Positions 43,459 to 60,366 of a stretch of DNA of 64,000 bases are shown here, in pieces. Position numbers and translations under genes: made by a program. Under the pieces are notes generated by a model. It saw only the letters and a program-made list of their open reading frames with translations. It was not told the origin of the DNA and ran no database searches. The DNA is taken from NCBI RefSeq assembly GCF_001042635.1, contig NZ_AP012331.1, positions 2,108,001 through 2,172,000 on the forward strand, read 5' to 3'. The DNA is from Bifidobacterium scardovii JCM 12489 = DSM 13734. GTDB taxonomy: Bacteria > Actinomycetota > Actinomycetes > Actinomycetales > Bifidobacteriaceae. How positions within the stretch are numbered: the first letter of the stretch is position 1; every line of letters starts with the position of its first letter.

Positions 43459-44757
43459 ATGGCATACTCCGAAATACCCTCCAGCGTGGCGGCGTTCATG
43501 CAGCGCATCACCGACCTATGCGGCGACGAGCACGCCGACTGGGCCGAGAACTTCAACGCCTGCTTCGCCAACACGCTGCTCACCACCGTCAACCGGCACG
43601 ACGATGGCACCACCTTCCTGCTGACCGGCGACATCCCCGCGATGTGGCTGCGCGACTCCACGGCCCAGCTGCGCCCGTACCTCGTCATCGCCGACGGGGA
43701 CAGCGACCTGGCCTCGATGATCGCCGGACTGGTCCGCCAGCAGTTCCGCTTCATCGGCATCGACCCCTATGCGAACGCGTTCAACGAGACGCCGAGCGGC
43801 GCCACCTGGGACCCCGACGACCGCTCCGACCAGTCGAGCCCGTGGCTGTGGGAGCGCAAGTACGAGGTCGACTCGCTGTGCTACCCGATCCAGCTCGCTT
43901 GGCTGCTCTACCGGAACACCGGCTGCACCGAGCAGTTCGACGACGGCTTCGTCGCCGGGGTCAGGCGCATCCTCGACGTGTTCGAGACCGAGCAGGACCA
44001 CACGAGGTCGCCGTACTTCTTCATCCGCAACACCACGCTGAAGACCGAGACGCTCGGCAACGACGGCAAGGGTTCCCCCGTGGCCGTCACCGGCATGACC
44101 TGGTCCGGGTTCCGCCCCAGCGACGACGCCTGCACCTACCACTACCTGGTGCCTTCGAACATGTTCGCCTCCGTGGTGATGGGCTATCTCGAGCGCATCT
44201 TCGACGGGACGGTCCTCGACGATCCGGACATCGTCGCGCGCGCCGCCGCCCTGCGCTCCTCGATCCGCAACGGCATCGAGACCCACGCCAAGACGACCAA
44301 CCGCAACGGCGAGACGATCTACGCGTTCGAGACCGACGGTCTCGGCAACCACCTGATCATGGACGACAGCAACGTGCCGAGCCTGCTGTCCGCCCCGTAC
44401 CTGGGCTACTGCGCGAACGACGACGAGACGTACCTGGCCACGCGGCGCACGCTGCTCAGCGACGAGAACCCCTACTACTACGAGGGCGCGTGCCTCAAGG
44501 GCATCGGCTCGCCGCACACGCCGCCGCGCTACGTGTGGCCCATCGCGCTGACCATCGAGGCGATGACCAGCGACGACCGGGACCACAAGCGCCGGGTCCT
44601 CGACCGCCTCGTCGCCACCGACGCCGGCACGCACCTCATGCACGAGGGCATCGACGTCGACGACCCGACCAAGTACACGCGCGAATGGTTCAGCTGGTCC
44701 AACATGATGTTCTGCGAACTGGTGATGGACTACTTCGGCATCCGCGTCCGGCGCTGA
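43459..44757 (+). CDS. Exo-alpha-1,6-mannosidase, GH125 family
   Basis: GH125 enzymes are inverting exo-alpha-1,6-mannosidases acting on N-glycan arms. The 432-aa protein has the conserved PAMWLRDSTAQLRPY and RYVWPIALTIEAMTS stretches, SGFRPSDDACTYHYLVPSN and a C-terminal EWFSWSNMMFCELVMD. There is no signal peptide. The ATG at 43459 has only a weak GAAG site. A TTG two codons earlier is possible. It works with GH38 (62.9 kb) on high-mannose or core trimannosyl structures and hands mannose to the next gene. Confidence 0.92.
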   Translation: MAYSEIPSSVAAFMQRITDLCGDEHADWAENFNACFANTLLTTVNRHDDGTTFLLTGDIPAMWLRDSTAQLRPYLVIADGDSDLASMIAGLVRQQFRFIGIDPYANAFNETPSGATWDPDDRSDQSSPWLWERKYEVDSLCYPIQLAWLLYRNTGCTEQFDDGFVAGVRRILDVFETEQDHTRSPYFFIRNTTLKTETLGNDGKGSPVAVTGMTWSGFRPSDDACTYHYLVPSNMFASVVMGYLERIFDGTVLDDPDIVARAAALRSSIRNGIETHAKTTNRNGETIYAFETDGLGNHLIMDDSNVPSLLSAPYLGYCANDDETYLATRRTLLSDENPYYYEGACLKGIGSPHTPPRYVWPIALTIEAMTSDDRDHKRRVLDRLVATDAGTHLMHEGIDVDDPTKYTREWFSWSNMMFCELVMDYFGIRVRR

Positions 44758-44810: not shown

Positions 44811-46043
44811 ATGACCAATCCGAAATACCGTCTCGGCACCGAGGCCAACCGCATCTTCATGGCCTCCGAGACCTATGAGCTGTTGCGCTTCGGCACCGGC
44901 TTCCCGGCGCCGAACGGAGGCTCCGGCTGGCTGAACGCCGACGGCACCCTCGACCCCTCGCACGGCGTGGAGACCTGGATCACCAGCCGCATGGCGCACG
45001 TCTACTCGATCGGCTCGCTGCTCGGCTATCCGGGCGCCGGAGAGCTGGCCGACCAGGCGCTCAAGGGCCTGACCGGCATCCTGCACGACGACAAGAACGG
45101 CGGCTGGTACCCGCAGGTGCACGAGGACGGCTCCCACGAGCCGGGCAAGGTCTGCTACGCGCACGCCTTCGTGATCCTCGCCGCGTCCTCCGCGCTGCTG
45201 GCCGGGCGCCCGGGCGCCAAGGAGCTGCTCGACGACGCGCTGGCCACGTACGACAGGCACTTCTGGGATGATCAGACCGGCCTGGCCGTCGACACCTGGA
45301 ACACCGAGTTCACCGAGCTCGACCCGTACCGCGGGCTCAACGCCAACATGCACACCACCGAGGCGTTCCTCGCCGTGGCCGACGCCACCGGAGACAACGC
45401 GTACCGCGTGCGCGCCGGCCGCATCATCGACCACGTGCTCGGCTGGGCGAAGCACAACGAGTGGCGCATCCCCGAGCACTTCGGCTCCGACTGGTCCATC
45501 GACCTCGAGTTCAACGCCGACAAGAAGGACGACCAGTTCAAGCCGTACGGCGCCACCCCGGGCCACGGCATCGAGTGGGCGCGCCTGATCACGCAGTGGG
45601 CGCTGAGCTCCTTCGCGAACCGCGAGGGCGCCAAGCCGTATGTCGAGGCCGCCGAGCAGCTGTTCGCCCGCGCCGTGGCCGACGGCTGGAACGCCGACGG
45701 CACCGTCGGCCTGGCCTACACGACCGACTGGAACGGCAAGCCGGTGGTCACCGACCGCATGCACTGGACGCTGGCCGAGTCGCTGAACACCTCCGCGACG
45801 CTGCTCGCCGCCACCGGCAAGGAGGAGTACCGCGACTGGTACGCGACCTTCGCGCAGTACGTGGACGAGCATGTGATCGACCACAAGGGCGGCTCCTGGT
45901 TCCACCAGCTCGACAAGGACAACAACGTGATCGGCACCGTGTGGCCGGGCAAGTCCGACCTGTACCACGCGTTCCAGTCCACGCTGATCCCGTTCCTCGA
46001 CCCGGCCGTGTCCATCGCCACCGCCGTGAAGAACGCCGCCTGA
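44811..46043 (+). CDS. AGE-family sugar isomerase, probable D-mannose isomerase
   Basis: The N-acylglucosamine 2-epimerase family includes mannose isomerases and cellobiose epimerases with an alpha6/alpha6 barrel. The 410-aa protein has family His regions such as VCYAHAFVI, NANMHTTEAFL, TPGHGIEWARL and DRMHWTLAE. AAAGAAAGGAA precedes the ATG, 53 bp after GH125. Because GH125 frees mannose and a fructokinase is upstream, mannose to fructose is the most sensible reaction. Epimerisation of ManNAc cannot be ruled out, but no sialic acid genes are nearby. Confidence 0.85.
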   Translation: MTNPKYRLGTEANRIFMASETYELLRFGTGFPAPNGGSGWLNADGTLDPSHGVETWITSRMAHVYSIGSLLGYPGAGELADQALKGLTGILHDDKNGGWYPQVHEDGSHEPGKVCYAHAFVILAASSALLAGRPGAKELLDDALATYDRHFWDDQTGLAVDTWNTEFTELDPYRGLNANMHTTEAFLAVADATGDNAYRVRAGRIIDHVLGWAKHNEWRIPEHFGSDWSIDLEFNADKKDDQFKPYGATPGHGIEWARLITQWALSSFANREGAKPYVEAAEQLFARAVADGWNADGTVGLAYTTDWNGKPVVTDRMHWTLAESLNTSATLLAATGKEEYRDWYATFAQYVDEHVIDHKGGSWFHQLDKDNNVIGTVWPGKSDLYHAFQSTLIPFLDPAVSIATAVKNAA

Positions 46044-46112: not shown

Positions 46113-48263
46113 TCACGCCCGCGCCGTCGCGCGCAGATAATCGCAGGCCCGCCACAGGATGGCGGCGATGCGGCGCAGTTCGGACTCGCGGCTGACCTCG
46201 CGCCACTGGCGGCAGTAGTCCTCGAACCAGAGTTCGACATCCTGCGCCAGGCGGTACGGTTCCGGCAATCCGGCGACGGACTCCTGGTCAAGCGTGCCGG
46301 CGCCGACCACCATCATCAGCGTCAGCGCGACGTCGTTCATAAGATCCTGCCCGCGGGCTGCCAGCCGCCATGCGTGCAGGTCGCCGCCCGTTCCCGCGCC
46401 GCTCTCGAGCGAGGCGCAGGCCCGCTCCACGATGAGCCGGGCGTCGGAACCCGGCGCAACGACGCCCGGCCTCAGATAGCCGCGATGATGCACGCAGCGC
46501 TCCGCGATCGGCCGCAGCACCGCCTGCCGCGCCCGTCCCAAGTCGCCGCCGTCGATGATGGACCGGCGTTCGGCGGGATCGACCCACCACAGGGCGTTCA
46601 CGACGTCGCGGTTGACGCGCCCGTCGCCGTCGTCGACCTCGAAGAAGCGCACGATGTCCTCCCACACGCCCAGCGCGCTCCCGCAGGCGCTGCCGAGCTC
46701 GCCGACCAGGTTTCCGGCAGTATCGCCGTACGCGACGCGCGAGACTGCCGCGCAGAGCTCCCCATACGGCATCTCGCCGGCGCTCCACGAACACTGGGCG
46801 CCCATGACCATGCCGGGCACGCTCATCCTGGGATCGTTGATATGCCCGTAGTCGCCCCAGTCGGTGAGCAGGAATCCGGCGGCCCCATACTCGCGGCCGT
46901 AGCGGGCGATGCGCGAGATGTTGCGCCACGCCGGCTCGATCATCGGCAGGCAGCGGTTCCACGCGTGCACCGCGGGGCAGACGATCTGCGTGGCGCCGGA
47001 ACGGGCGACCAGCGCGATCTGCTCGTCGGTGACATCGGGCGAATACTGCCAGTTGAGCAGCACCGCATCGTCCGGCAGCTGCGGCAGAATCTCGGGCATC
47101 TGCACGGCGATGTCGCCCCACAGCATCGGTTCGCGCCCGCGGCTCGACACATACTCGCACAGCCGGCTCACGTACCGAGCGTACATCGAGCCGACGCCGA
47201 CCCGCTCCGCCTCCGCGCGCGAGCGCCCCTTGCCCAGATCGAAGGTCTCGTCGCCGCAGATGTTGAACTTGCGCGAGCGGAACAGCGGCATGTATTCGTC
47301 GATCAGCCGCGTGGAGAACGCGAACGCCTCGTCGAGCGTGACGTTGAGCGTGTGGTGCGCCATGCGCTCGACGAAGCTGAACGGGCGGTCGGCCTGTTCG
47401 GGGAATTCCCCCAGATCGCGCAGCCGCTGGGTCCTCAACGCCATGTACAGATGCCCGAAGGTGGAGACCGACGGCACCAGCTCGATGCCGCGCTCATGGC
47501 AGTAGCCGTCGAAGGCGACGATGTCCTCGGCGTTCAGCGGCGAGGCGCCGCGCCACACGTCGCTCATCCCCGTGAACGCGAAGGTGTGCTCGACGTAGAG
47601 CTGCAGCTGGTTGTACTTGTACAGGCACAGCCGGTCGACCCATTCCTTGAGCCAGTCCAGCGTGGGGACTCGGCCGCGCGTCACGTCCAGATAGTACCCG
47701 CGCTCCGGCATGGCCGGCCGATCCTCGATGTGGACGGCCGGCAGGCTTGCGCCGCACTGCCGGATGATCTGGCGCAGGGTCTGCACGCCGTGGCGCAGGC
47801 CGGCCGTGGAGCCGCCCCTCACCTCGATGCGGTCCGCCGACCACGCGGCGGCGTAGGCCTCGGATCGGGGATCCCAGCCATAGGGGCCCTCGACCACGGG
47901 CTCGATGTCCAACGCATACTCCTGCTCCCCCAGGGACGGATCGAGCCGCAGCAGGATGACGGCGGGCGAGCCGCCGGCCGCCGCCCGCGCGAAGCCATCC
48001 CGATCGAGACCGGCCGCATCAGCGCGGGTCACGCCCCGCCACACCACGCCGTACCGTTCGATCTCGCCCCGCAGCTGGCCGGCCATGATCTCGCCGGGAT
48101 CGTCGATGGCGGCGTCCCCGACGACGGCGACCTCGGCAAGCCGCACGGCGCCGTCATCGCCGACGTCCATCACCGCCGGCTCGGGCAGCACCGCGAACGG
48201 CGCGTCGGCGCGGGCCGAGAATCCGGTGTCGGACCCGGCGCTGGATTTGGTATTCGTTGCCAT
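46113..48263 (-). CDS. Beta-N-acetylhexosaminidase, GH20 family (second of two)
   Basis: The 716-aa cytosolic protein is paralogous to the GH20 at 9.3 kb. The blocks RGYYLDVTRGRVPTLDWLK and REPMLWGDI are shared, and the catalytic pair is D338-E339 in ICGDETFDLG. GGGGAATG lies before the ATG. It is the last gene of the minus-strand run that starts with the cassette-4 importer and contains the sulfatase, and it follows GH3 by 137 bp. It may remove GlcNAc after desulfation, or accept sulfated GlcNAc directly. The sequence does not decide which. Confidence 0.9.
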   Translation of the reverse strand: MATNTKSSAGSDTGFSARADAPFAVLPEPAVMDVGDDGAVRLAEVAVVGDAAIDDPGEIMAGQLRGEIERYGVVWRGVTRADAAGLDRDGFARAAAGGSPAVILLRLDPSLGEQEYALDIEPVVEGPYGWDPRSEAYAAAWSADRIEVRGGSTAGLRHGVQTLRQIIRQCGASLPAVHIEDRPAMPERGYYLDVTRGRVPTLDWLKEWVDRLCLYKYNQLQLYVEHTFAFTGMSDVWRGASPLNAEDIVAFDGYCHERGIELVPSVSTFGHLYMALRTQRLRDLGEFPEQADRPFSFVERMAHHTLNVTLDEAFAFSTRLIDEYMPLFRSRKFNICGDETFDLGKGRSRAEAERVGVGSMYARYVSRLCEYVSSRGREPMLWGDIAVQMPEILPQLPDDAVLLNWQYSPDVTDEQIALVARSGATQIVCPAVHAWNRCLPMIEPAWRNISRIARYGREYGAAGFLLTDWGDYGHINDPRMSVPGMVMGAQCSWSAGEMPYGELCAAVSRVAYGDTAGNLVGELGSACGSALGVWEDIVRFFEVDDGDGRVNRDVVNALWWVDPAERRSIIDGGDLGRARQAVLRPIAERCVHHRGYLRPGVVAPGSDARLIVERACASLESGAGTGGDLHAWRLAARGQDLMNDVALTLMMVVGAGTLDQESVAGLPEPYRLAQDVELWFEDYCRQWREVSRESELRRIAAILWRACDYLRATARA

Positions 48264-48400: not shown

Positions 48401-50653
48401 TCAGCGCCCGCGCGCCACGTCCACGTCCACGTCCACGTCGATCGTACGCCCCAAAGCGGTCAGACGGACCCTCACCATGCCGTCGCCGGCGTCCATCAGG
48501 CTCGGGAACGGCACGGCCATGCGCACCTCGCGGCGCTGCCCGGCCTCCAGCCGCAGATACTCGGATCCGACCAGCATGCTCAGCCGCGGCACCCGATGCC
48601 CGCCGACGCAGTGGGCGAACAGGTTCAGCGCGCCGCGCGCGCCCGAGGGGCCGGCGGACACCGCCAACGTCACCGCAAGCGTCTCGGAGCCGGCATCGGC
48701 CGCCGCACGCATATCGTCCACCGTGACCCCGGCCAGCGCGCCGAGACCGAAGCCGAACGGAAGCAGCACCGGCTCGTCCGCGTCGCGGTAGACGTGCGCA
48801 GCGCCCTGCCGGTCGTTGTACCGCACCGGCACCGCGGCCGGGTACGCGGGCAGCGTCACCGGCAGGCGTCCCGGCAGCGCGGCGCCGCCGGCGAGCGCGT
48901 CGGCGACGGCTTGGGGCCCGTACTGCCCCGCGTATCCGGCCCAGACCACCACCGCGGAACGGTCCATGACCCGCGTGAGCACATGCGCGCGCCCGCAGAC
49001 CGCCACCGACACGATCGGCGCGCCGGTTCTGGCGGCGATGGCCTCCAACCGGGCATCCTGACCCCACGGCAGGCCGATGTCCGACAGGTCGACGCCCTCG
49101 CCGCAGGTGGCGCCGTGCTCGGGCACGGCCTTCGCGGCCCCGTTGTCGTCGAAGGCGCTATCGTAGCTGCGCTCGCTGGTGCCGCCGCACACGAACACGA
49201 CCGCGGCGGCCTGCGCCCAGACGTCTTCGGGCAGATCGCCGGGGTCGGGCGCCAGCCGGACGCGGTCGGCGCCGTAACGCCGGCACAGTTCGCGGTAGAC
49301 GCTCGTGCGCTCCCCTTCCGGCACCGGCGCGGTGTAGTCGCCGAGGAAGCAGCCGAAGTCGTCGGCGAACGGACCGGACACGACCACCGTGCCGCCCTGC
49401 GCCGGCGTGCCGGCGAGCAGCGTTCGGATCCCGCCCAGCGCCTCATCCCCCTTGAGCAGCGTCAGCGACTCGCGGGCCATCTCCCTAGAGCGTTCGTGCG
49501 TCACGGCGATGGCCCGCGCGATGCGGTCCGCCGGCAGATCGGGCACCGTCATCGCCGTGTCTCCGTCCGCGGGCAGCAGGCCGAACGCCCGCTTCAGCTC
49601 GAGGACGCGGCGCAGCGACGCGTCCACGGCGGCCGCCACGGCCTCGTCGTCCGCATACTCCTCCAGACTGGCGAAGCCGCGATCCCACAGCGAGATGTCG
49701 ACGCCGGCGAGCAGCGCGGCCCGGCCGGCTGCGGGGATGGACCCCGCCATGTCCGCCAGCCGGTCGACCGCCAGGCCGTCCGCCATGACGACGCCGTCGA
49801 AGCCCAGCTCGCCGCGCAGATAGGTCCTGAGCAGCCACGGATTGGCGCAGCAAGGCACCGAATCGATGTCGTTGTAGGCCGCCATGAAGCCCCACGCGCC
49901 GGCGCGCACCCCGGCCTCCACCGGGGGCAGGTGGATCTCGCGCAGATCGTGCTCGCCGACGACCGCGGACTGCCCGTTACGGCCGCCGACGGCCTCGCCC
50001 TGCGCGGCGAGATGCTTGAGCACCACGGCCACGCCGCCCTTGCCGACGTTGGCGCGCCGCTCGCCCTGCATGCCCGTGACGATGGCCTCGCACAGGCGGG
50101 CCGCCAGCAGCGGGTCCTCGCCGAAGCACTCCTCGCAGCGGCCCCACCGCGGGTCGCGCGCGATGTCGAGCCCGGAGACGAGCGCGATGTGCACGCCGCT
50201 GGCGGCGAGTTCGGCGGCCACGGCGGCTTCGGCCTCGCACACCGCCTGCGGGTCGAAGGTGGCGCCGAGCGCCAGGTTGGTCGGCAGCACGGTGCCGCCG
50301 AGGGCCTGGTGCCCGTGCGGGGTCTCCTCGCTCAGCAGCGTGCCGATGCCGTGCGCCCCGCGGGCCAGCACGGTCTCCTGCACCAGCGCCACCGCCTCGG
50401 GCCGTTCCTCGGGCCGGATGCCGTTGCCCCAGTGCTGCCCCGACCACGGGTCGGCGCGCAGCAGGCCGTACAACGTTCCGAGGCCGCCCCAGCGGTCGAT
50501 CTCGCGCTTCAGCTCGTCCGTGGCCACCAGCCTGCCGCCGGCGTCGCGGCCGACGGCCCTCCACCCGAGCAGGCGCTGGTTGAGCTGCCCGACCTTTTCG
50601 GTGAAGCTCATCGAGGCGATCAAACGGTCGATGGTCCCGGATCCAGTGGTCAT
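48401..50653 (-). CDS. Glycoside hydrolase family 3 protein
   Basis: The 750-aa cytosolic GH3 has an N-terminal barrel with RDPRWGRCEECFGEDP, KHLAAQGE and nucleophile Asp in VVMADGLAVDRL. The second sandwich domain (VVVWAGYAGQYGP) and a C-terminal fibronectin-III-like domain follow. AAAGGACATC precedes the ATG at 50653. The architecture is that of GH3 beta-glucosidases and beta-xylosidases rather than the short NagZ type. The usual SDW after the nucleophile strand reads ADG, so specificity is open. The C-terminus is a (Val-Asp)n run encoded by a GTCCAC tandem repeat. It lies between lacI and GH20. Confidence 0.85.
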   Translation of the reverse strand: MTTGSGTIDRLIASMSFTEKVGQLNQRLLGWRAVGRDAGGRLVATDELKREIDRWGGLGTLYGLLRADPWSGQHWGNGIRPEERPEAVALVQETVLARGAHGIGTLLSEETPHGHQALGGTVLPTNLALGATFDPQAVCEAEAAVAAELAASGVHIALVSGLDIARDPRWGRCEECFGEDPLLAARLCEAIVTGMQGERRANVGKGGVAVVLKHLAAQGEAVGGRNGQSAVVGEHDLREIHLPPVEAGVRAGAWGFMAAYNDIDSVPCCANPWLLRTYLRGELGFDGVVMADGLAVDRLADMAGSIPAAGRAALLAGVDISLWDRGFASLEEYADDEAVAAAVDASLRRVLELKRAFGLLPADGDTAMTVPDLPADRIARAIAVTHERSREMARESLTLLKGDEALGGIRTLLAGTPAQGGTVVVSGPFADDFGCFLGDYTAPVPEGERTSVYRELCRRYGADRVRLAPDPGDLPEDVWAQAAAVVFVCGGTSERSYDSAFDDNGAAKAVPEHGATCGEGVDLSDIGLPWGQDARLEAIAARTGAPIVSVAVCGRAHVLTRVMDRSAVVVWAGYAGQYGPQAVADALAGGAALPGRLPVTLPAYPAAVPVRYNDRQGAAHVYRDADEPVLLPFGFGLGALAGVTVDDMRAAADAGSETLAVTLAVSAGPSGARGALNLFAHCVGGHRVPRLSMLVGSEYLRLEAGQRREVRMAVPFPSLMDAGDGMVRVRLTALGRTIDVDVDVDVARGR

Positions 50654-50794
50654 GCGGATGTCCTTTCCGGCAAAAATTCGTGCTTGCCTGCGTGCGTGCG
50701 TACCGAGCGCGTACCGAGAACGCACCGAGAGAGAGCGTACAGCTCCGTCGGCGGCGACGCTGCCTTTCCGTTATCTCTCGCCCGGAGCGCCGCC

Positions 50795-51898
50795 TCAGGC
50801 GACGCGGTTCTTGGTGCTTTCGCGGATGATGAGCCGGGGCGTGAGTATCTTGCGGTTGCCGCTCACCTGCTCGCCGGCCAGCAGCTTGAGCAGCAGGTTC
50901 GCCACCTTGGCGCCGTATTCGCCGGCGTCGCGGTGCACCGCCGTGATCGAGGGGTACGAGGCCTCGCAGATGAAGCTGTCCTCGAAGCTGACGATGGCCG
51001 GCAGGTTGAAGGGGTACCGGCGCGAGGCGTCCTCGCCGTTCGCCAGCGCGCTTTTGGCGACCAGAATCTCCGTGATCGAACGGAGGCTGGACGCGGCGAG
51101 GATCTCCGTCTCGTAGATGAAGGCCGTCGGCGGCTGCGAGGAGGCCAGGAACCGTTGCGTCAGTTCCACGGCCTTGTCCGTGTCGAAGTCCGTGAATTCG
51201 ACGCGGGCCGATTCCAGATGCCTCTGCTCGGCGAAGCGCAGGAAGGTCTTCTCCCTTTCCTTGCTGTAGTCCAGCGCCGGGTCGCCCGAGATATAGGCGA
51301 TGCGCGTATGCCCCAGCAGCGACAGATGGTCGAGGATCGTCTCCATGGTGCGCGAGTCGTCGATCGACAGGGAGGGCACCAGATCGTAGGCGTCCGGCCC
51401 GCCGGCCAGCACCGCCGCGACCCCCAGTTCCTTGAGCATCGCCGGCCGCGGGTCGTCGGATCGCAGATCCACCAGGATCACGCCATCCACCCGCTTGCGC
51501 CGCGCCCAGTCGCGGTACACGCCGGTCTCCTCCTTGAGCGAGGCGCACGGGCGGTACAGCAGGCCGTATCCCTTGCGGCTCAGCGAGGAGTGCAGGCCGG
51601 CCATGAAATGCAGCATGAAGGTCTCGTTCTGCACATCGGAGGAGCGCGACGGGGCGAAGCCGATCGTCATGGTCTTGGATGAGCCGAGCGCCTGGGCGGC
51701 ATACACCGGGCTCCACCCGTGCCGGGCCGCCAGCTGCTTGACCCGGCGCTTCGTCTCCGCGGACACCCCCGGCCGGTCATTGATGGCGAACGACACGGCG
51801 GTCTGCGAAATGCCGAGCTCATCCGCGATGTCCTTGAGCGTGAACCGCGAAGCGGATGACGCTTTCCCGCCTCGGCCATCATCTTCGAAAGCCGTCAT
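50795..51898 (-). CDS. LacI-family transcriptional regulator
   Basis: The N-terminal helix-turn-helix and hinge (FTLKDIADELGISQTAVSFA, then SAETKRRVKQLAARHGW) are followed by a periplasmic-binding-like effector domain, 367 aa. AAAGG lies eight bases before the ATG at 51898. An ATG two codons upstream is too close to it. It is the only LacI regulator in the window and lies between the DUF202 pair and GH3. It could bind the CTAAA-N4-TTTAG sites at 19.3 and 60.2-60.3 kb or the inverted repeat GTTGC-N6-GCAAC at 51961-51976 just before it. The effector is unknown. Confidence 0.92.
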   Translation of the reverse strand: MTAFEDDGRGGKASSASRFTLKDIADELGISQTAVSFAINDRPGVSAETKRRVKQLAARHGWSPVYAAQALGSSKTMTIGFAPSRSSDVQNETFMLHFMAGLHSSLSRKGYGLLYRPCASLKEETGVYRDWARRKRVDGVILVDLRSDDPRPAMLKELGVAAVLAGGPDAYDLVPSLSIDDSRTMETILDHLSLLGHTRIAYISGDPALDYSKEREKTFLRFAEQRHLESARVEFTDFDTDKAVELTQRFLASSQPPTAFIYETEILAASSLRSITEILVAKSALANGEDASRRYPFNLPAIVSFEDSFICEASYPSITAVHRDAGEYGAKVANLLLKLLAGEQVSGNRKILTPRLIIRESTKNRVA

Positions 51899-51960
51899 CT
51901 GCATAACCTTTCATGGTAGGGAGGGTTCCACCACGCCCTCGCGCATATTCACCAACTCTC

Positions 51961-51976
51961 GTTGCCGGAACGCAAC
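51961..51976. promoter_or_regulatory. Short inverted repeat before lacI
   Basis: GTTGC-CGGAAC-GCAAC lies 63 bp upstream of the lacI start in the gap after the DUF202 pair. It could be an autoregulatory operator. Arms are short, so chance is not excluded. Confidence 0.35.
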
Positions 51977-51992
51977 AGCCCCTCGTCTCATC

Positions 51993-52319
51993 TTATGCCA
52001 TCAGCACCAGCGCCAACGAGGAAAACGACACAATCCCGAGGCATCCGGCGACGACGGCGAGGCCGCCGCCTCCCGGCGGCCTGTCGGCGGCGCCGCGCCG
52101 GTCCACGGCGAGGAACCAGGATTCGTATCTCGACCTGCGCAGCCAGTACACCACGCATTCGGCCGCGAACAGCACGACGCCGCACGCGCAGGCCACGCCC
52201 CAGCGCGAGTCGAGATAGGACAGCGCCCTGATCGCGGCGCAGCACAGCACCCCGGTCGCCAGCAGCGTCCGTTTCCAGGCCAGCCTCGTGCGTTCGATCT
52301 GCACGCCCCGGTCGATCAT
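51993..52319 (-). CDS. Small DUF202-family membrane protein (second)
   Basis: The 108-aa protein starts MIDRGVQIERTRLAWKRTLL, the conserved DUF202 Glu-Arg-Thr-x-x-Ala-Trp region, then three hydrophobic segments. Its ATG overlaps the upstream stop by four bases (ATGA), so the two DUF202 proteins are coupled, like yidH-yidG of enterobacteria. Function is unknown for the family. Its place right after a sulfatase-maturing enzyme suggests a membrane task tied to sulfated-glycan use, for example sulfate or acid export, which is speculation. Confidence 0.8.
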   Translation of the reverse strand: MIDRGVQIERTRLAWKRTLLATGVLCCAAIRALSYLDSRWGVACACGVVLFAAECVVYWLRRSRYESWFLAVDRRGAADRPPGGGGLAVVAGCLGIVSFSSLALVLMA

Positions 52320-52687
52320 CGCGCCCCCATCCATGAGATCACCATGCCGCACGCCACGCATACGGCGCAGACCGTGGTGACGATCGCGAACACGAACTGG
52401 GCGATCGACTCCGGCAGCGGATCGCTCAGACGCATGGCGCGCTCGGTGCGCGCCCAATCGATCCAGGCGAGGATTGGCAGCGCCGATCCGACGAGCAGCG
52501 CCAGCACGACGACCGCCGTCTTCAGCCGGGGCGCCATCGCCACGGTGACGTTGTCGAGGGCGATCGCCAAGGAGACGATGGCGAACGACGTGCGGCACCA
52601 AGCCAGAAACGTGCGTTCATTGGCCAGGCTGAACCGGGGGTCCGGCTCGTCGCCGCAGTCGTAGACCTTACGCGGGAACCGGCTCAT
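52316..52687 (-). CDS. Small DUF202-family membrane protein (first)
   Basis: The 123-aa protein has the DUF202 signature (FSLANERTFLAWCRTSFAI) and three hydrophobic segments. The perfect ribosome site AGGAGGTGA lies inside the 3' end of the radical SAM gene, and the two genes overlap by 20 bp. It is therefore a real, translationally coupled member of the sulfatase operon rather than a chance frame. Confidence 0.85.
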   Translation of the reverse strand: MSRFPRKVYDCGDEPDPRFSLANERTFLAWCRTSFAIVSLAIALDNVTVAMAPRLKTAVVVLALLVGSALPILAWIDWARTERAMRLSDPLPESIAQFVFAIVTTVCAVCVACGMVISWMGAR

Positions 52688-53951
52688 GGGCCATCACCTC
52701 CTGAAGCGCGCGGGCCGGGCCGGGCGCGCACGGGTCGAAGTCGGTCATGATCGCCGCCGCCGGCAGGCCCTCGTCGATCAGCTGGGCCATGCGTTCCATC
52801 GCCGGCATCGCATGGGTGAAGAACATCCGGTACCCCTCGCACAGATAGTTCAGCCGACGCGTCCCCTCGCCGTCGGGCAGGAAACGGTCCTTGGGGCACC
52901 CGCCCTGGCACGCCCAGAGCACCGGGCAGCGCCGGCAGTCCTGAGGCAGATTCTGCTTGAATCCGGAGAAACGGCGGTGCCGATCGGAATCGATCATGTC
53001 CCGGAACCCCTCGTGCAGGAAGTTGCCGAGGCGGTACTCGTCCTCCACCCAGTGGTCGCAGGAGAAGACGTCGCCGTTGTGGGCCGCGACCAGGGCGTTG
53101 CCGCACTGGGGCGCGTGCACGCACAGCGAATACTGGCCGAACATGTTGCCCAGCATCACGTCGAACTGCTGCACGAAGGTCGTGCCGACGTCGTGCCTGA
53201 CCCATTCGTCGAACACCGCGTCAAGGAATTCGCCCCATGATTCCGGCTTCACCGAACGGCTCGTGACGTGGTGGCCGGCCTGCCGGTACAGCAGGCGGCT
53301 GCCGTCGGTGCGCCGCCAGCGGTTCTCCGCCGTGGCCGCGTGCGCGGCGTCCACGCGTTCAACGATGGGGATGAACTGCATGTGGTCGGCGTGCATCTCG
53401 TCGCGGAAGAACCGGTACATCTCAAGCGGATGCCGCTCGTTGGCCGCGTGGACGGTGCACAGCACGTTGCGGGCTATGCCGTAGTCCTCCAGCAGATGCC
53501 AGCCGCGCATCACGGCGTCATGGCTGCCGTGGCCGGCCCGGTTCACCCGGTACCGGTCGTGCAGGTCCTTCGGCCCGTCGACGCTGATCCCGACCAGCAC
53601 CTGGTGTTTGGCCAGCAGACGGCACCACCGGTCGTCGAGCAGGGTGCCGTTGGTCTGCAGCACATGGTTGACGTGCTGTCGCGGGCGGGCGAGCCGCTCG
53701 GCCAGAGGCAGCGCCTTTTCGAAGAACCCGACGCCGCGCAGCGTGGGTTCCCCGCCCTGCCAGGCCACGCTCACCTCGCCGTCCGGCTGCTCGTCGAGGT
53801 ATCGGCGCAGGAAGATCTCGAGGGTGTCCTCGCTCATCAGCGGGTCCCCCGGCAGCACCTGATCCTTGGAGATGAAGAAGCAGTACTCGCAGTCGAGGTT
53901 GCAAAAGGCTCCGGTCGGCTTGACCAGCACCGAAAACGGCGTACCCGCCAT
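52668..53951 (-). CDS. Anaerobic sulfatase-maturing radical SAM enzyme (anSME)
   Basis: anSME oxidises the active-site Cys (or Ser) of sulfatases to formylglycine. The 427-aa protein has the radical SAM motif CNLDCEYC (C17, C21, C24), the SAM-binding GGEPTL, and C-terminal SPASM cysteine clusters (CGNALVAAHNGDVFSCDHW, CRRCPVLWACQGGCP) for auxiliary Fe-S centres. AGGAGG precedes the ATG at 53951. It follows the sulfatase gene by 67 bp, as expected for its substrate. Being oxygen-independent, it suits an anaerobic bifidobacterium. Confidence 0.93.
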   Translation of the reverse strand: MAGTPFSVLVKPTGAFCNLDCEYCFFISKDQVLPGDPLMSEDTLEIFLRRYLDEQPDGEVSVAWQGGEPTLRGVGFFEKALPLAERLARPRQHVNHVLQTNGTLLDDRWCRLLAKHQVLVGISVDGPKDLHDRYRVNRAGHGSHDAVMRGWHLLEDYGIARNVLCTVHAANERHPLEMYRFFRDEMHADHMQFIPIVERVDAAHAATAENRWRRTDGSRLLYRQAGHHVTSRSVKPESWGEFLDAVFDEWVRHDVGTTFVQQFDVMLGNMFGQYSLCVHAPQCGNALVAAHNGDVFSCDHWVEDEYRLGNFLHEGFRDMIDSDRHRRFSGFKQNLPQDCRRCPVLWACQGGCPKDRFLPDGEGTRRLNYLCEGYRMFFTHAMPAMERMAQLIDEGLPAAAIMTDFDPCAPGPARALQEVMAHEPVPA

Positions 53952-54018
53952 GGTGACCCTCCTGGTTGTTCCGTGCATGTGGACGGTGCACCGCGCCGGG
54001 CGCAGCGCACCCTTGCCG

Positions 54019-55464
54019 TTACAGCTTGCCCATCATCCGGCGGCGCTCCGCCTTGGTCGGGCGTTCGTACGGCTTGTCGCCGAGCTGCCGCTGCAGCTCG
54101 AGCAGACGCTGCTTGAGCTTGTCCCGGATCTCCACGTATCTCGGGTCCGTGTATACGGAGTGCAACTCGTGCGGGTCGAGTTTGAGGTCGAACAGCTCCC
54201 ATTCCGGCGGATAGGTCACGTTGTTGGTGTTCGCCAGCCCCAGGCCATCCGCGTAATAGTAGATGAGCTTGTAACGCTCCGTGGTGATGCCGTAATGCGC
54301 CCAGACGTGGTGCATGTGGTCGTCGTGCTCGTAGTAGCGGTAGTAGAACGCGTCGCGCACCTGGGCGTCGGGCACGCCGGTGATCTGCGGCAGCAGGCTC
54401 ATGCCCTGCATCCGGTCGATGCTCGGCACGTCCGCAGCATCGAGCAGCGTCTGCGCGATGTCGACGTTCGACACCAGGTTGGAGACCACCTGCCCGGCCG
54501 GAACGCGGCGGGGATACGACATCAGCAGCGGCATGCGCAGGGATTCCTCGTACATGAACCGCTTGTCGAACCACCCGTGCTCGCCAAGGAAGAACCCTTG
54601 GTCCGAGCCGTATATCGTGATGGTGTCGTCGTGCTCGCCGCGTTCGTCGACGGCCTGCGCGACGTGCCCGACGCTCTCGTCGATGGCGGCGATGACGCGC
54701 AGGTAGTCCTGCAGGTAGCGCTGGTACTTCCACAGGGAGAGCTGCTCGTAGCTCATGCCCTCCGGAGGGTCCTCCTTGAGGTCCACGTCGGTCAGGTCGT
54801 CGGCGATGCGCATCGTGGCCTTGTGGGCCGGCGTCGCACGGTCCGAATAGTCGTCCCAGAACGTCTCCGGCACCGGAATCGGATCCGTGTACAGGTTCAT
54901 GTGGCGGGGATGGGGCACCCACGGCCGGTGCGGCGCCTTGTGCCACAGCAGCAGGCACCAGGGCTTGTCACCGTTCTGCTTGGACAGCCACTCCAGCGCG
55001 TGGTCGGTCAGCAGATCGGTGGCGTACCCTTCCGTCTGCACGTCGCCGTCGGCCGTGTGCAGCAGCGGGTCGATGTACGTGCCCTGATCGTGCAGCACCT
55101 CCCAGTAGTCGAAACCCTGCGGGTCGTGGCCCGGGCCGTGGCCCATATGCCATTTGCCGAAGAAGGCCGTGGCGTAGCCGGCGTCGTGCAGCAGCGACGC
55201 GAACGTCGGCTGGCTGGAATCGATGGGCGTGTCCAGCGCGGTGACGCCGTTGACGTGGCTGTAGGTTCCGGTCAGGATCGTGGCCCTCGACGGCGCGCAC
55301 AGCGAGTTGGTGACCAGCGCGCGGTCGAAGCGCACGCCCTCCTTGGCGACCCTGTCGATGTTCGGCGTATTGTTCAGATGCAGCTGATCGCCATAGCAGC
55401 TGATCGCCGGAGCGGCGTGGTCGTCGGTCAGAACAAACAGGATATTGGGGCGTTTCTCGTTCAT
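54019..55464 (-). CDS. Cysteine-type sulfatase, cytosolic (S1 family)
   Basis: The enzyme hydrolyses a sulfate ester on a sugar. The formylglycine site CAPSR starts at Cys56 (NSLCAPSRATILTG). Metal-binding Asp residues are in LTDDH near residue 13 and GSDQGFFLGEHGW later. FFGKWHMG supplies the usual Lys. At 481 aa with no signal peptide, it acts inside the cell. Its ATG overlaps the stop of the importer permease by four bases, so sulfatase and importer are translationally coupled. Target sugar is not proven. GlcNAc-6-sulfate of mucin or sulfated N-glycans is the best guess given GH20. Confidence 0.9.
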   Translation of the reverse strand: MNEKRPNILFVLTDDHAAPAISCYGDQLHLNNTPNIDRVAKEGVRFDRALVTNSLCAPSRATILTGTYSHVNGVTALDTPIDSSQPTFASLLHDAGYATAFFGKWHMGHGPGHDPQGFDYWEVLHDQGTYIDPLLHTADGDVQTEGYATDLLTDHALEWLSKQNGDKPWCLLLWHKAPHRPWVPHPRHMNLYTDPIPVPETFWDDYSDRATPAHKATMRIADDLTDVDLKEDPPEGMSYEQLSLWKYQRYLQDYLRVIAAIDESVGHVAQAVDERGEHDDTITIYGSDQGFFLGEHGWFDKRFMYEESLRMPLLMSYPRRVPAGQVVSNLVSNVDIAQTLLDAADVPSIDRMQGMSLLPQITGVPDAQVRDAFYYRYYEHDDHMHHVWAHYGITTERYKLIYYYADGLGLANTNNVTYPPEWELFDLKLDPHELHSVYTDPRYVEIRDKLKQRLLELQRQLGDKPYERPTKAERRRMMGKL

Positions 55465-56327
55465 CCCTTGATGCCTCCTTCGCCGACGCCCTGGAAGAAG
55501 TACTTCTGCAGGGCGAAGAACAGAACCAGAATCGGCAGAATCGCGATGATCGTGCCCGCGGCGACGACGCGGGGATCATTGGCGAAGGTGCCTTGCAGAT
55601 AATTCAATCCGATCGTCAACGTGTACTTGTTCTGATCGGACATCACGAGCAGCGGCCACAGGAAGTCGTCCCATGCGGCGACGAAGGAGAAGATGGCGAC
55701 TACCGCCATCGTGCCCTTGACCGACGGGATGATGATGCGGGTGAACCGCTCCCATGCGTTGGCGCCGTCGATCATCGCGGCCTCCTCCAGCGAGGTCGGG
55801 ATACCGCCGATCGCGTTGCGCATCAGCAGCACGTTCATCGCGGACACCAGCGACGGCAGCGCGATGCCGATCAGCGTGTTGTTCAGCCCCATGTTCTGCA
55901 TCAGCATGTACCGGGCGATCAGGATCGTCTCGGTCGGCATGACGATGCCGACGATGATCACGCCCATCGCGAACCGGCGTCCCTTGAACTGGAACTTGGC
56001 GAGCGCGTATCCGGCCGCGGTGGCGCCGGCCACGTTGCCGATCAGGCAGATGACGGCCACGATCACCGAGTTGATGGTGTACCTGAGGATCGGCACGATG
56101 CGCGTCACCTCGCCGTAGGCGGCGAAGGTCGCGTCCTCGGGCCAGAACTGGGGAGGCCTGGTGTACAGGTCGACGCCCTTGCCCTTGAGCGAGGTCGACA
56201 GCTGCCACAGCAGCGGCGCGACCAGGATGACCAGGATGACCAGCAGTACGATGTAGCGGACGACCAGCCCCGCTATTTTCCTTGATTTGGAACCGGCCGC
56301 GGTTCCTCGTTGGATGCCGTTGCCCAT
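55461..56327 (-). CDS. ABC sugar transporter permease, MalG type (sulfatase cassette)
   Basis: This is a 288-aa CUT1 permease with EAA loop EEAAMIDGANAWERFTRIII and C-terminus GVGEGGIKG. The ATG at 56327 shares a base with the malF stop (TGATG) and GGAGG lies upstream. Its closest relative in the window is the permease at 12.8 kb. The 3' end overlaps the sulfatase start, making import and desulfation one translational unit. Confidence 0.92.
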   Translation of the reverse strand: MGNGIQRGTAAGSKSRKIAGLVVRYIVLLVILVILVAPLLWQLSTSLKGKGVDLYTRPPQFWPEDATFAAYGEVTRIVPILRYTINSVIVAVICLIGNVAGATAAGYALAKFQFKGRRFAMGVIIVGIVMPTETILIARYMLMQNMGLNNTLIGIALPSLVSAMNVLLMRNAIGGIPTSLEEAAMIDGANAWERFTRIIIPSVKGTMAVVAIFSFVAAWDDFLWPLLVMSDQNKYTLTIGLNYLQGTFANDPRVVAAGTIIAILPILVLFFALQKYFFQGVGEGGIKG

Positions 56328-57289
56328 CACTCATCCTCCATTTGCATGCGCAGCGATGCGATCATGAGGCCGACGGTGATGAGGAACATCACCAGGGAGA
56401 TCGCCGAGGAGTACCCGACCTGCGCGTCGAGGCCGGTGCCTTCCCTCTGGATGAGCATGACCATCGTCATGCCCTTGCCTCCGATGCCGGCGGTATTGTT
56501 CGACAGTACGTAGATTTCGGTGAACACGCGGAACGCGGCGACCGAGGACAGGGCGGCGATGAGCACCATCGTGTTGCGCACGCCGGGGATGGTGACGCTC
56601 CAGAACTGGTGCCAGGCACCGGCGCCGTCGATGGACGCCGCCTCGTACAGGTCCGTCGGGATGTTGGTCAGCGCCGCCAGGTAGATCACCATGTAGTAGC
56701 CGACGCCCTTCCAGATGGTGACGATCATCGACGAGATCAGCAGCAGCCACCGGTCGGTGAGGAAGGGCACCGGCGAGGTGATCCAGCCCAGCGCCTGCAG
56801 CAGCGAGTTGACCATGCCGCGCGAATCGAGCATCCACTGCCACATGATGCCGGCCGCCACCATGGAGACGATCACCGGCACGTAGTAGCCGGTGCGGAAC
56901 ACCGCGATGAACGGCACCTGCTTCTGCACCAGCAGCGCCAGCAGCAGCGGCAGGAAGACCATGGCCGGCATGACGACCACGACGTAGAGCGCCGAGTTCT
57001 GCAGGGCCGTCCAGAAGCGCTCGTCGTGCGCCATTTCGATGAAGTTGTCCAATCCCACGAACTTCCAGCTGCCCAGTCGCCGTGCGTTGGTGAACGAGTA
57101 CATGATGGTCTGCAGGAACGGAACGATGGAGAACAGGATGGTCACCACCAGGGCCACGGACAGGAACAGCCATGGGGTGGCGACGCCGTTGCGGCGGATG
57201 CGGTTCGAGACGCCGCCGCCCGACGGGCCGGTGCCACGTCGGGCGGCGAGCTTGTCGCCGCGATCCCGCTTGTCGGTTGCGGCAGTCAT
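56327..57289 (-). CDS. ABC sugar transporter permease, MalF type (sulfatase cassette)
   Basis: This is a 320-aa CUT1 permease with EAA loop YEAASIDGAGAWHQFWSVTI. It is clearly paralogous to the permease at 13.6 kb: same length, and both have a basic head and the MLIxREGTGL block. It begins three bases after the lipoprotein stop. Hydrophobic segments start with VATPWLFLSVALVVTILF. Confidence 0.92.
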   Translation of the reverse strand: MTAATDKRDRGDKLAARRGTGPSGGGVSNRIRRNGVATPWLFLSVALVVTILFSIVPFLQTIMYSFTNARRLGSWKFVGLDNFIEMAHDERFWTALQNSALYVVVVMPAMVFLPLLLALLVQKQVPFIAVFRTGYYVPVIVSMVAAGIMWQWMLDSRGMVNSLLQALGWITSPVPFLTDRWLLLISSMIVTIWKGVGYYMVIYLAALTNIPTDLYEAASIDGAGAWHQFWSVTIPGVRNTMVLIAALSSVAAFRVFTEIYVLSNNTAGIGGKGMTMVMLIQREGTGLDAQVGYSSAISLVMFLITVGLMIASLRMQMEDE

Positions 57290-57292
57290 GGA

Positions 57293-58594
57293 TTAGTCCT
57301 CCAGTCGCTGGTTGCAGAAGTCCACGGCGTCGTCGAGCGCCTGCTGCACGGACTTTTCGCCCTGCAGGGCCTTGGCGATCTCCTCGCGCAGGTTGGACTT
57401 CATGGCTTCGCTGTACACGGCCGGCGAGTAGGCGACCGCCTCCTGGATCTGCTTGGCGCCCATCACGCGCACCTCGGCGATGTCGGAGCCGTCGCTCTCG
57501 GTGAAGTAGGAGTCCTCCAGCGATTCCTTGGCGGAGGGGAAGATGTTCACCTGCTTGGCGAACTCCAGCTGGTTCTTCGCGTTGGTGACGAACTTGGCGA
57601 AGGCGACCGCCGTGGCCGGGTTCTTGCTCTGCGTCGAGACGCCGATCAGCTGCGGGTTCATGTTCGGGGCCGCGTTGGTGATCTGCTGGGTGTAGACGAG
57701 GGACTTGTACACGCTGGGTGCGTCGTCCTTGATCTGCTGGATGTTCTGCGCGCTGCCGGCCATGTACGCGATGCGCGCGGACTGGAAGCTCTTGTCGACG
57801 CCGGTGTAGTTCTGGCTCAGGGTCTCGGGCAGCAGGCCGCCGGCGTCGTAGACCTCCTTGTATCGGTTGACGTATTCCACGGCCTTGTCGTTGTTGAAGG
57901 TGAACTTGGTCTGATCCGCGTTCATGATCTCCGCACCGTACTCGCCGAAGGACTCGAGCGTCGGGGTCTTGCCGAACATCGAGAAGTCGCCGTGGGCGTT
58001 CTTCGCCATGACCAGCGCGTCGTCGAACAGCTCGTCGAAGTTCTTCGGCAGGTCGTTGGGATCAAGGCCGGCCTTCTCGAACAGCGCGGTGTTGAAGAGC
58101 GACGGCCCGGTCGTCAGATACCACGGCAGCGCGTAGGTGCCGCCGTCGATGGACTTCCAGGTGGCCACGTCCCAGGCCTTGTCCAGATAGATGTCCTTCA
58201 CGTCGGAGGCCACCTTGCTCATATCCATCAGGTAGCCGCTCTTGGCCAGCGGGTAGCTGGTGTTCTGGTCGAAGTTGATGACGTCCGGCAGCGTGCCGCC
58301 CGAGGCGTCGGCCGACAGCTTGTCGGCGTAGTTGTCGGCGGGCTGGTCGATCCACTTGACCGTGGTGCCGGGGTTCTCCTTCTCGAACTCGTCGATCACG
58401 CCGTTGAAATAGTCCTCGAAGGCCGCCTTCAGATTCCAGGTCTGGAACGTGATCTCTCCCTTGACCTCGCCGTTCTTCACCTGGTCCACATAGTCCGAGC
58501 CCGCTCCGGCGGAGGACCCGCACCCGGACAGTCCCATGCACAGCGCCAGTGCTGCGGCGGATACCATGGTCATGCGATGTGACTTCAGTGTCAT
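57293..58594 (-). CDS. Sugar-binding lipoprotein (sulfatase cassette)
   Basis: The 433-aa protein has a lipobox ending at Cys25 (GLSGC) and a family 1 solute-binding fold. The ATG at 58594 follows a purine-rich stretch (GAGAGAAAGAA). The in-frame upstream codons to 58651 lie over a palindrome and were not used. It matches the cassette-1 lipoprotein (EDYF, EFEKENP, VKWIDQP) and so probably binds a related oligosaccharide, here perhaps sulfated. It is first in the sulfatase operon. Confidence 0.88.
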   Translation of the reverse strand: MTLKSHRMTMVSAAALALCMGLSGCGSSAGAGSDYVDQVKNGEVKGEITFQTWNLKAAFEDYFNGVIDEFEKENPGTTVKWIDQPADNYADKLSADASGGTLPDVINFDQNTSYPLAKSGYLMDMSKVASDVKDIYLDKAWDVATWKSIDGGTYALPWYLTTGPSLFNTALFEKAGLDPNDLPKNFDELFDDALVMAKNAHGDFSMFGKTPTLESFGEYGAEIMNADQTKFTFNNDKAVEYVNRYKEVYDAGGLLPETLSQNYTGVDKSFQSARIAYMAGSAQNIQQIKDDAPSVYKSLVYTQQITNAAPNMNPQLIGVSTQSKNPATAVAFAKFVTNAKNQLEFAKQVNIFPSAKESLEDSYFTESDGSDIAEVRVMGAKQIQEAVAYSPAVYSEAMKSNLREEIAKALQGEKSVQQALDDAVDFCNQRLED

Positions 58595-58794: not shown

Positions 58795-60078
58795 TCAGTC
58801 CCTGGCCAGCGACGGATCGGACACGGCGGAATAGGCGTCCCCGGCAACTAGGTCGCAGGTGATGCATTCGTCGATGCCACGGCGCTCGAGTTCCGCCGGA
58901 TCGGCGGCGAGCGTGGACGAGATCAGCGCGGGGCGCTCGCCCGCCTCCTCCATGGCCATCCACCGCTCGAAGATCGATCCGCCCGGCGCGCAGGCCAGCC
59001 GGCACAGGGGAAGCTCATGGTCGTCGACCGGGATGACGATCGCCTTGCCGCGTCTTTCGGGGACCACGGCATCCTTGTTCGCGGCAAACTCGGCGAGGAC
59101 CTTGGCCAAGGGCTTGGCGTTGCCCTGCTCGTCGAACAGGCCGAGCGCGTGCTCGAACGGCGGGAAATCCGACATCGCGCGGGACACGTCGTGCGAGCAC
59201 CACCAGGTGATGCCGTACAGGCGGTCGCAGCGCAGCGCGTGCTCCACGGTCCTTCTGCAGAATTCCGCGGCATCCGCGCGGTCGACGACGTTCTCGGGAG
59301 CGCCGACCTCCTGCAGCCAGACCTGATGGCCGGCATCGTGCGTGAACGCCTTCGCCAGCTCGACCAGGTACGCGGCGTGCATCACGCTGGCCGGCGACAT
59401 GCCGCCGTACCGCTGCGCGGTGCCGTTGAACACCCAGGAATGCACCGTGGCGACGTCGCCGAGGTTCGATGCCTGCCGGGGAGCGAAGGGGTGCCCGTCC
59501 ATGTACCACACGCCGTCATTCTCGCTGTGCAGCAGCACGCGGCCGGAGGCGGCGGCGCGGTCGCGGATCGGCGACATCATCGCGTCGATCCACTGCCCGG
59601 CGCCGGTCTCGTCGGCGGTCATCCGGTGGGGATGGCTGCGATCCGCGAACTGGTTGCACTCGTTGCCGAGCGTCAGCCCGCGGAAATTCGGCAGGTCATC
59701 CAGGGCATCGTATACCGCGGACACCAGCCGGGCCTCGGCCTCGACGGCCTGGGCGTCGGTGAACATGCTGCGGTCGTGCCAGGTGACCAGCCACGACGGG
59801 ATGAAATCAAAGCTCGACAGGTGCCCTTGGAATACGTCGCAGAACACGTCGAGACCGGCCTTGCCCGCGATGTCGCACATGGTGCGCACATCGTCCAGCC
59901 CCTTGCCGTTGATCCAGGTTCGATTGGGCTGCAGAATCGGCCACACCGGAAAAATCCTGACGTGGTCAAGACCCAACGCCGCAATCTGATCGAGATCCTT
60001 GGCCACGGATTCCCAGTCGGGATCCAACCAGGCATGGAACCAGCCATGCGACGGGGTGTAATTGACGCCGAATCGCAT
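58795..60078 (-). CDS. Beta-mannosidase, GH5 subfamily 18 type
   Basis: GH5_18 enzymes of bifidobacteria cleave Man-beta1,4-GlcNAc, the disaccharide left when the N-glycan core is trimmed after endoglycosidase release. The 427-aa protein starts MRFGVNYTPSHGWFHAWLDP, has acid/base Glu140 in LTLGNECNQF and nucleophile Glu257 in WLQEVGAPE, and lacks a signal peptide. A small C-terminal domain follows the barrel. The ATG lies divergent to the MFS gene across a region with two LacI-type sites, the same motif as before the endoglycosidase, which fits joint control. Confidence 0.88.
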   Translation of the reverse strand: MRFGVNYTPSHGWFHAWLDPDWESVAKDLDQIAALGLDHVRIFPVWPILQPNRTWINGKGLDDVRTMCDIAGKAGLDVFCDVFQGHLSSFDFIPSWLVTWHDRSMFTDAQAVEAEARLVSAVYDALDDLPNFRGLTLGNECNQFADRSHPHRMTADETGAGQWIDAMMSPIRDRAAASGRVLLHSENDGVWYMDGHPFAPRQASNLGDVATVHSWVFNGTAQRYGGMSPASVMHAAYLVELAKAFTHDAGHQVWLQEVGAPENVVDRADAAEFCRRTVEHALRCDRLYGITWWCSHDVSRAMSDFPPFEHALGLFDEQGNAKPLAKVLAEFAANKDAVVPERRGKAIVIPVDDHELPLCRLACAPGGSIFERWMAMEEAGERPALISSTLAADPAELERRGIDECITCDLVAGDAYSAVSDPSLARD

Positions 60079-60160: not shown

Positions 60161-60366
60161 CACTAAACTGCTTTAGTAGCAGAATAACCGTTCGCCCCCT
60201 AAATGGCAAATCGAGCGACACGCCGGCTAACAGCACATAAATCAGGCTTATTCATGTAGTTTTCCGTATCGCCGACACCACCTCAAACCATGCCGCAACC
60301 CCGAGAACGCACGCGACACGACATCGACGCAGCTAATTCGCTTTAGTTTCGTCCTGCTGTTATTAT
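60161..60366. promoter_or_regulatory. Divergent control region with two LacI-type operators
   Basis: CACTAAACTGCTTTAGTAGC (60161-60180) and CTAATTCGCTTTAG (60333-60346) share the CTAAA-N4-TTTAG pattern (one change in the second). The second overlaps a plausible MFS -35 (TTCGCT 60337-60342) with -10 TATTAT (60361-60366), spaced 18 bp. The 153 bp between the operators could form a loop. No gene is seen in this 364-bp gap. Confidence 0.65.

Follow-up and report, generated by a model that had tools for sequence, protein, structure and literature searches.

An ABC importer-sulfatase gene run with a DUF202 pair in an N-glycan locus of Bifidobacterium scardovii, a candidate route for sulfated N-glycans

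The stretch analysed here (the window) comprises 64,000 nucleotides of the Bifidobacterium scardovii JCM 12489 genome (G000:C1:2108001-2172000), which is a single contig of 3,158,347 bases. A profile scan of the window found a tightly packed run of minus-strand genes for an ATP-binding cassette (ABC) importer, here called ABC1, consisting of a substrate-binding protein (SBP) lipoprotein and permeases of MalF and MalG type, together with an S1_11-type sulfatase, an anaerobic sulfatase-maturating enzyme (anSME), two DUF202 proteins and a LacI regulator. The genes named in the original prediction were all present on the minus strand at their expected positions. That prediction had the run extend from the lipoprotein gene to GH3 and GH20. 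The order was borne out, while the first gene is GH5_18, one gene before the lipoprotein. The run lies within an N-glycan locus. The features of the run are as follows.

60332..60347, no strand: another operator-like site with 2 mismatches, nearer the major facilitator superfamily (MFS) gene in the divergent gap
60162..60177, no strand: candidate operator with 1 mismatch relative to ACTAAANCGNTTTAGT; GH5_18 begins 84 bases downstream
58795..60078, minus: GH5_18, N-glycan core beta-mannosidase type (6mp2, E 3.1e-166)
57293..58594, minus: SBP lipoprotein of ABC1 (SBP_bac_1), ATG at 58594
56327..57289, minus: MalF-type permease of ABC1 (BPD_transp_1)
55461..56330, minus: MalG-type permease of ABC1 (BPD_transp_1)
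54019..55464, minus: predicted cytosolic S1_11-type sulfatase (PF00884, 169.1 bits; C56-A-P-S-R motif)
52668..53978, minus: anSME, radical SAM (TIGR03942, 419.9 bits, cut-off 349.45), ATG perhaps at 53951
52316..52687, minus: DUF202 protein a (YidH-like), VTC1-like fold
51993..52319, minus: DUF202 protein b (YidG-like); its presumed start gives the 4-base overlap
50795..51904, minus: LacI regulator; its counterparts in other bifidobacterial N-glycan loci share 62-86% identity with it
48401..50653, minus: GH3, beta-xylosidase/glucosidase type; open reading frame to 50725, ATG taken at 50653
46113..48263, minus: GH20 without visible signal peptide; homologues in L160 (58%) and L166 (36%)

The MalG and sulfatase genes overlap by 4 bases; for MalF and MalG the overlap is 4 bases if the start is GTG and 1 if it is ATG. 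The anSME gene overlaps that of DUF202 protein a by 20 bases, and the two DUF202 genes overlap by 4 if protein b begins at the ATG at 52319; the overlaps originally claimed for the sulfatase and DUF202 genes are thus as described. A search for the same order in other bifidobacteria, which had been proposed, found GH5_18-SBP-MalF-MalG-sulfatase-anSME-DUF202-DUF202-LacI in G050, another genome of the genus, whose sulfatase is 90% identical to that of the window. Because it recurs there, the gene order is beyond chance, and the importer-sulfatase run is a real, conserved unit. This unit does not always include GH3 and GH20, since G050 has a Schlafen/AlbA_2 gene in their place, between LacI and the gene of the N-acylglucosamine 2-epimerase family (AGE); in the window, gaps of about 140 bases separate GH3 and GH20 from the rest.

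The candidate operator pattern ACTAAANCGNTTTAGT was generalised from a palindrome common to the regions upstream of GH38 and of ABC3, a further importer to the right of the window. With at most 2 mismatches, the whole genome contains 6 sites, all within a 54-kb region (2127349 to 2180892): one upstream of the EndoS-type GH18 gene, two in the GH5_18/MFS gap, one upstream of GH38 and two upstream of ABC3. Since the pattern is a palindrome, the control for this genome-wide count is uninformative. With at most 3 mismatches, the window contains 3 sites against 0.18 expected, a number reached in 0 of 100 shuffles. A promoter-like pair (60209-60181) lies next to the operator at 60162..60177, the promoter scan having found 1 against 1.7 expected. 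Both sites recur in the GH5_18/MFS gap of G050. For comparison, 20 family loci around related SBPs were fetched, chosen from 43 SBP places outside G000 and G050, mostly the best scoring. At least one operator site is present in 17 of these 20; those without one are L150, on a contig that begins within GH38, and the two loci L165 and L166, where no LacI turned up. The sulfatase run carries the candidate operator common to bifidobacterial N-glycan loci. On the basis of the operator distribution and the conserved sites, the sulfatase operon probably belongs to the N-glycan regulon. The co-occurrence of LacI and site suggests that the LacI regulator of the run reads ACTAAANCGNTTTAGT. A published reconstruction of 64 regulator groups in ten bifidobacteria (PMC4746261) has neither "mannos" nor "sulfat" in its main text.

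Other genes of the surrounding region are listed below.

62924..63982, minus: GH38 alpha-mannosidase, C-terminal part, extending beyond the window
43453..44757, plus: GH125 alpha-mannosidase
44832..46043, plus: AGE
27579-29834: 1,3-beta-galactosyl-N-acetylhexosamine phosphorylase, galacto-N-biose/lacto-N-biose type (TIGR02336, 1288.5 bits)
17344..19116, minus: EndoS-type GH18 endoglycosidase whose N-terminus looks like a signal sequence; its operator is at 19349-19364

The importer genes adjoin GH5_18 and GH38 together with LacI, and the closest solved relatives of GH5_18 are the bifidobacterial BlMan5B and BlGH5_18. The window also codes for GH29, a second GH20, GH2, a PfkB kinase, and proteins of NagA, NagB, GalT and GalE types. 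A relative of the SBP occurs in 44 of 189 Bifidobacteriaceae genomes. Among the 20 fetched loci, GH5_18 and GH38 are each found in 19 and LacI in 16, with no sulfatase or anSME in any of them. Large genomes of the same class (L220-L222) have SBP-MalF-MalG-GH5_18 together with LacI and GH38. These counts and genomes indicate that the importer genes form an old N-glycan set to which the sulfatase module was added.

The sulfatase is of S1_11 type by sequence ranking. Its best solved relatives are the N-acetylglucosamine (GlcNAc)-6-sulfatase 5g2v (E 1.7e-118), 9s03 and the mucin-desulfating 7p24, and its C56-A-P-S-R stretch fits the formylglycine motif C/S-x-P/A-S-R. All 31 homologues compared share C56, D300, R302 and H390, and D300/R302 align with D361/R363 of BT4656. 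By this conservation, D300, R302 and H390 are candidates for the His plus Asp/Arg triad. A recognition triad of this kind is described in PMC10154612. The predicted model has a pLDDT of 81.3, with the active-site loop 290-302 under 50. No signal peptide was seen in a crude hydropathy check, and the last importer gene overlaps the sulfatase gene, in agreement with the earlier proposal of an importer-linked cytosolic sulfatase. A relative of the sulfatase stands at 72% (P0126) and one of the SBP at 63% (P0244). The longest contig is given as 13883 bases for both P0126 and P0244 and as 12766 bases for both P0137 and P0253, so the members of each pair may be linked. In the genus of G923, 1 of 392 genomes has a close homologue of the sulfatase (E 1e-180 or better, 56% identity). 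A search of viral contigs gave no match.

Relatives of the sulfatase at E 1e-130 or better occur in 46 of 366 Microbacterium genomes. Their context was taken from the best-scoring 20 of these 46 and from L005, several loci being near-identical. In all of the 14 best loci (62-65% identity), SBP and MalF genes lie beside the sulfatase, and GH5_18 is present in 13, GH38 in 10, LacI in 10 and an EndoS-type GH18 (>100 bits) in 7, on contigs several of which are short. Neither GH5_18 nor GH38 is found in the six remaining fetched loci (59-62% identity). In a tree of 63 of 93 rows (9 loci having been left out because the tblastn stretch was interrupted by a stop or was too short), the 14 Microbacterium sulfatases, that of L005 and the two bifidobacterial ones form one clade (SH-like approximate likelihood-ratio test [SH-aLRT], 99). 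A second, different sulfatase, 25-27% identical to that of the window, follows GH5_18 in Microbacterium N-glycan loci (L005:11502-14069).

The importers do not group in this way. In a second tree, with six actinobacterial loci added and L146, L166 and L197 dropped for their long branches (long branches were flagged again), ABC1 is joined to the other bifidobacterial importers with a support of 96, and the Microbacterium importers stand apart; the trees are of the quick type. In this second tree ABC1 lies outside the 21 other bifidobacterial importers with a support of 100 and is not orthologous to the core importer. Joint transfer of importer and sulfatase from Microbacterium seemed allowed by a first tree (39 rows, unrooted, long branches flagged) and was rejected on the second. 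That two importer lineages are joined to one sulfatase clade speaks for function. SBP residues that include F50-Q51-T52-W53, W81, D83-Q84-P85 and P157-W158-Y159 are conserved across 37 or more of 39 importers, whether or not a sulfatase is present. Three paralogous N-glycan-type ABC importers lie in about 60 kb, namely ABC2 (12763-15844), ABC1 (55461-58594) and ABC3 (L143:6657-9755), and the ABC3 subunits are 69-84% identical to the importers of L159, L160, L162 and L163.

Among 13 sulfatase/anSME clusters of the family, TauE/SafE is found in 6, a DUF202 pair in 6 and both in none; one cluster is cut off. DUF202 occurs in exactly 6 of the 189 family genomes, which are those with DUF202-pair clusters. 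The DUF202 pair replaces TauE in family sulfatase clusters, and this replacement, like the VTC1-like fold, was missed by the original prediction. The pair adjoins anSME in four of the six clusters (window, L100, L104 and L108) and follows the sulfatase, away from anSME, in L110 and L111. The anSME of the run is the sole match in the genome over the TIGR03942 cut-off. The transmembrane fold of DUF202 matches membrane subunits of the VTC polyphosphate complex, and DUF202 protein a (123 aa) has 4099 relatives at E 0.001 or better. A pair of opposite topology was considered and rejected, as both members look N-in by eye. The DUF202 matches in PMC10434189 are DUF2023, another family. Outside the family, a DUF202 gene (L009:11977-12181) and a DUF202 pair (L018:12011-12718) immediately follow a sulfatase gene in Saccharopolyspora and Cryobacterium, with no anSME match in the 22-kb stretch of either locus. 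By context and fold, the DUF202 pair is a candidate sulfate exporter, and this candidate role is the most novel part of the system.

Several known systems share parts of this arrangement. The ats glycosulfatase clusters of B. breve were reportedly described by Egan et al. 2016 and, like this run, have a cytosolic sulfatase and an anSME in a bifidobacterium. In G028, which we take to be B. breve, one cluster reads MFS-sulfatase-anSME-TauE, in line with the MFS carrier earlier named for ats clusters, whereas the other (L102:8355-17019) reads sulfatase-LacI-anSME-TauE and is divergent from an adjoining ABC importer of another family. The earlier statement on the MFS carrier therefore holds only in part, and the second cluster represents another type of sulfatase-ABC association. 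The G028 sulfatases are only 23-27% identical to that of the window and stand with TauE, not a DUF202 pair, so the run is not of the ats kind with TauE. The ats work is cited in PMC9599254. BT4656 (5g2v) and BT3177 of Bacteroides belong to the same S1_11 sequence family and share the triad positions; however, BT4656 is periplasmic (PMC10154612), whereas the window sulfatase has no visible signal peptide, and the 5g2v and 7p24 chains have serine at the formylglycine position instead of cysteine.

The bifidobacterial N-glycan locus reported in PMC11758915, with the mnaABC importer, GH38, GH125 and GH5_18, has its importer type and these three enzymes in common with the present locus. Compared by description rather than by mnaABC sequence, ABC1 differs as a separate lineage with a sulfatase, an anSME and a DUF202 pair. 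Endoglycosidase-coupled ABC import of N-glycan fragments, as proposed here, is known for pneumococcal NgtS (PMC5215778); that text is without the word "sulfat", and the likeness is one of description, not sequence. In Escherichia coli, the overlapping DUF202 pair yidG-yidH lies near the yidJ sulfatase and the putative transporter yidK, as in this run, but without an ABC importer or glycosidase. Yeast VTC1, of the polyphosphate polymerase complex, shares the DUF202 fold and an ANERTFL-W stretch. Unlike that complex, which has polymerase and SPX subunits, neither the 123-aa DUF202 protein a nor its Pfam-scanned neighbours (the part of the genome searched) contain either.

The GH5_18, GH38, GH125, AGE and LacI neighbours, the common operator and the occurrence of this sulfatase clade within N-glycan loci of Microbacterium together argue for an N-glycan setting. 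We consider it reasonably likely that the run is the sulfated-N-glycan arm of the bifidobacterial N-glycan regulon, combining import, internal desulfation and exit of sulfate through DUF202, and the imported substrate is probably N-glycan fragments with GlcNAc-6-sulfate. In this scheme, the secreted EndoS-type GH18 would release N-glycans, and ABC1 would take up a fragment whose antennae are possibly sulfated. The anSME-activated sulfatase would then strip 6-sulfate off terminal GlcNAc in the cytosol, after which GH20, GH38/GH125 and GH5_18 would take the glycan apart. The DUF202 pair would most likely release the freed sulfate, in place of the TauE/SafE of other bifidobacterial clusters. Import followed by internal desulfation, as originally proposed, remains the likeliest order. 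The proposed order of steps is suggested by a gut-metagenome sulfatase that cuts terminal GlcNAc-6-sulfate of human immunoglobulin A (IgA) N-glycans only after removal of sialic acid and galactose (PMC8379841).

A number of observations weigh against this scheme. Two of the six operator sites supplied the pattern that found the other four, so the pattern was drawn in part from its own sites. The full unit is present in only two family genomes (the window genome and G050), the only 2 of 189 with the sulfatase at E 1e-20 or better, and genomes and loci are related, so that counts are not independent. The L-galactose-6-sulfatase 7lha, which we presume to belong to S1_11, is a lower-scoring relative of the sulfatase. 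No basic residue of the SBP is common to both sulfatase-linked sets yet lacking in the others, so the importer may accept sulfated fragments without recognising the sulfate. The GH38 gene reaching into the window (L143:2-3208) consists of two same-frame pieces, apparently split by an in-frame stop near L143:2222, which points to a broken gene or a sequencing error. The phosphorylase at 27579-29834, 25 kb off, is an enzyme of O-glycans or milk sugars rather than N-glycans. DUF202, TauE and anSME are found in 0 of 15 Microbacterium N-glycan loci in the fetched stretch, and DUF202 in only L009, L015 and L018 (L015 and L018 lying on one contig) among the best 80 of 591 sulfatase loci; an exporter beside the sulfatase is therefore no general rule. 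A TauE protein is encoded elsewhere in five of the six DUF202 genomes, and TauE is named for sulfite. The phosphorylase, and the absence of an exporter gene from the fetched Microbacterium stretches, make the scheme slightly less probable.

Alternatively, ABC1 could import unsulfated N-glycans, the sulfatase module being a passenger whose target is GlcNAc-6-sulfate or some other sulfate ester arriving by another route. An SBP without sulfate-specific change and with widely kept key residues would fit this, as would the presence of anSME and DUF202 pairs with other sulfatases elsewhere. However, the 4-base MalG/sulfatase overlap, the identical order in G050, and Microbacterium N-glycan loci that combine the same sulfatase clade with another importer lineage make it unlikely. 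Desulfation of mucin O-glycans or glycosaminoglycans, as in B. breve ats or the polysaccharide utilization loci of Bacteroides, would agree with close solved relatives that work on mucin or heparan 6S-GlcNAc (PMC10154612) and with the phosphorylase and the GalT and GalE types in the window. The immediate neighbours and the operator, however, are those of N-glycan loci, no operator site lies near the phosphorylase, and no glycosaminoglycan lyase was found among the scanned window proteins, which were not every open reading frame; we judge this explanation quite improbable. A free-standing mucin ats cluster was rejected on the operator and the close neighbours, and the phosphorylase keeps it as a rival.

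For the DUF202 pair itself, a role in sulfatase maturation or membrane tethering rather than export seems doubtful. It would be in keeping with the position beside anSME in four of six clusters, whereas the pair is apart from anSME in L110 and L111, L009 and L018 lack an anSME match in their 22-kb stretches, TauE stands in its place in six clusters, and DUF202 folds like a membrane subunit of the polyphosphate complex. We tentatively propose, as a possibility, that tandem DUF202 proteins (YidG/YidH-like) form a new class of sulfate exporter with a VTC1-like anion pore, interchangeable with TauE/SafE, which would complete an importer-sulfatase-exporter route for sulfated N-glycans. If so, the large DUF202 family would gain a first function that can be put to the test, and this raises the question of how cells with internal sulfatases dispose of sulfate. 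No publication on this system was found among literature titles and abstract starts, which covered few subscription papers. N-glycans with GlcNAc-6-sulfate occur on human IgA (PMC8379841). If the scheme holds, bifidobacteria could use sulfated N-glycans such as these, which would tie a commensal to a secreted immune glycoprotein.

GH3 had been proposed, with GH20, to cut the imported glycan; a hexosaminidase role for it is not supported, its best relatives being of beta-xylosidase/glucosidase type. A GH3 of this type recurs beside GH5_18 in the N-glycan loci L147, L150, L157 and L164, and it may perhaps act on the xylose of plant N-glycans. The GalT and GalE types lie beside the phosphorylase at 27579-29834, and phosphorylase and GalT recur in G050 (L101). 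Divergent from GH5_18 across the operator-bearing gap, 60443-62646 codes for an MFS carrier and a metallo-beta-lactamase-fold protein, and this pair is also present in G050 (L100) and in L160.

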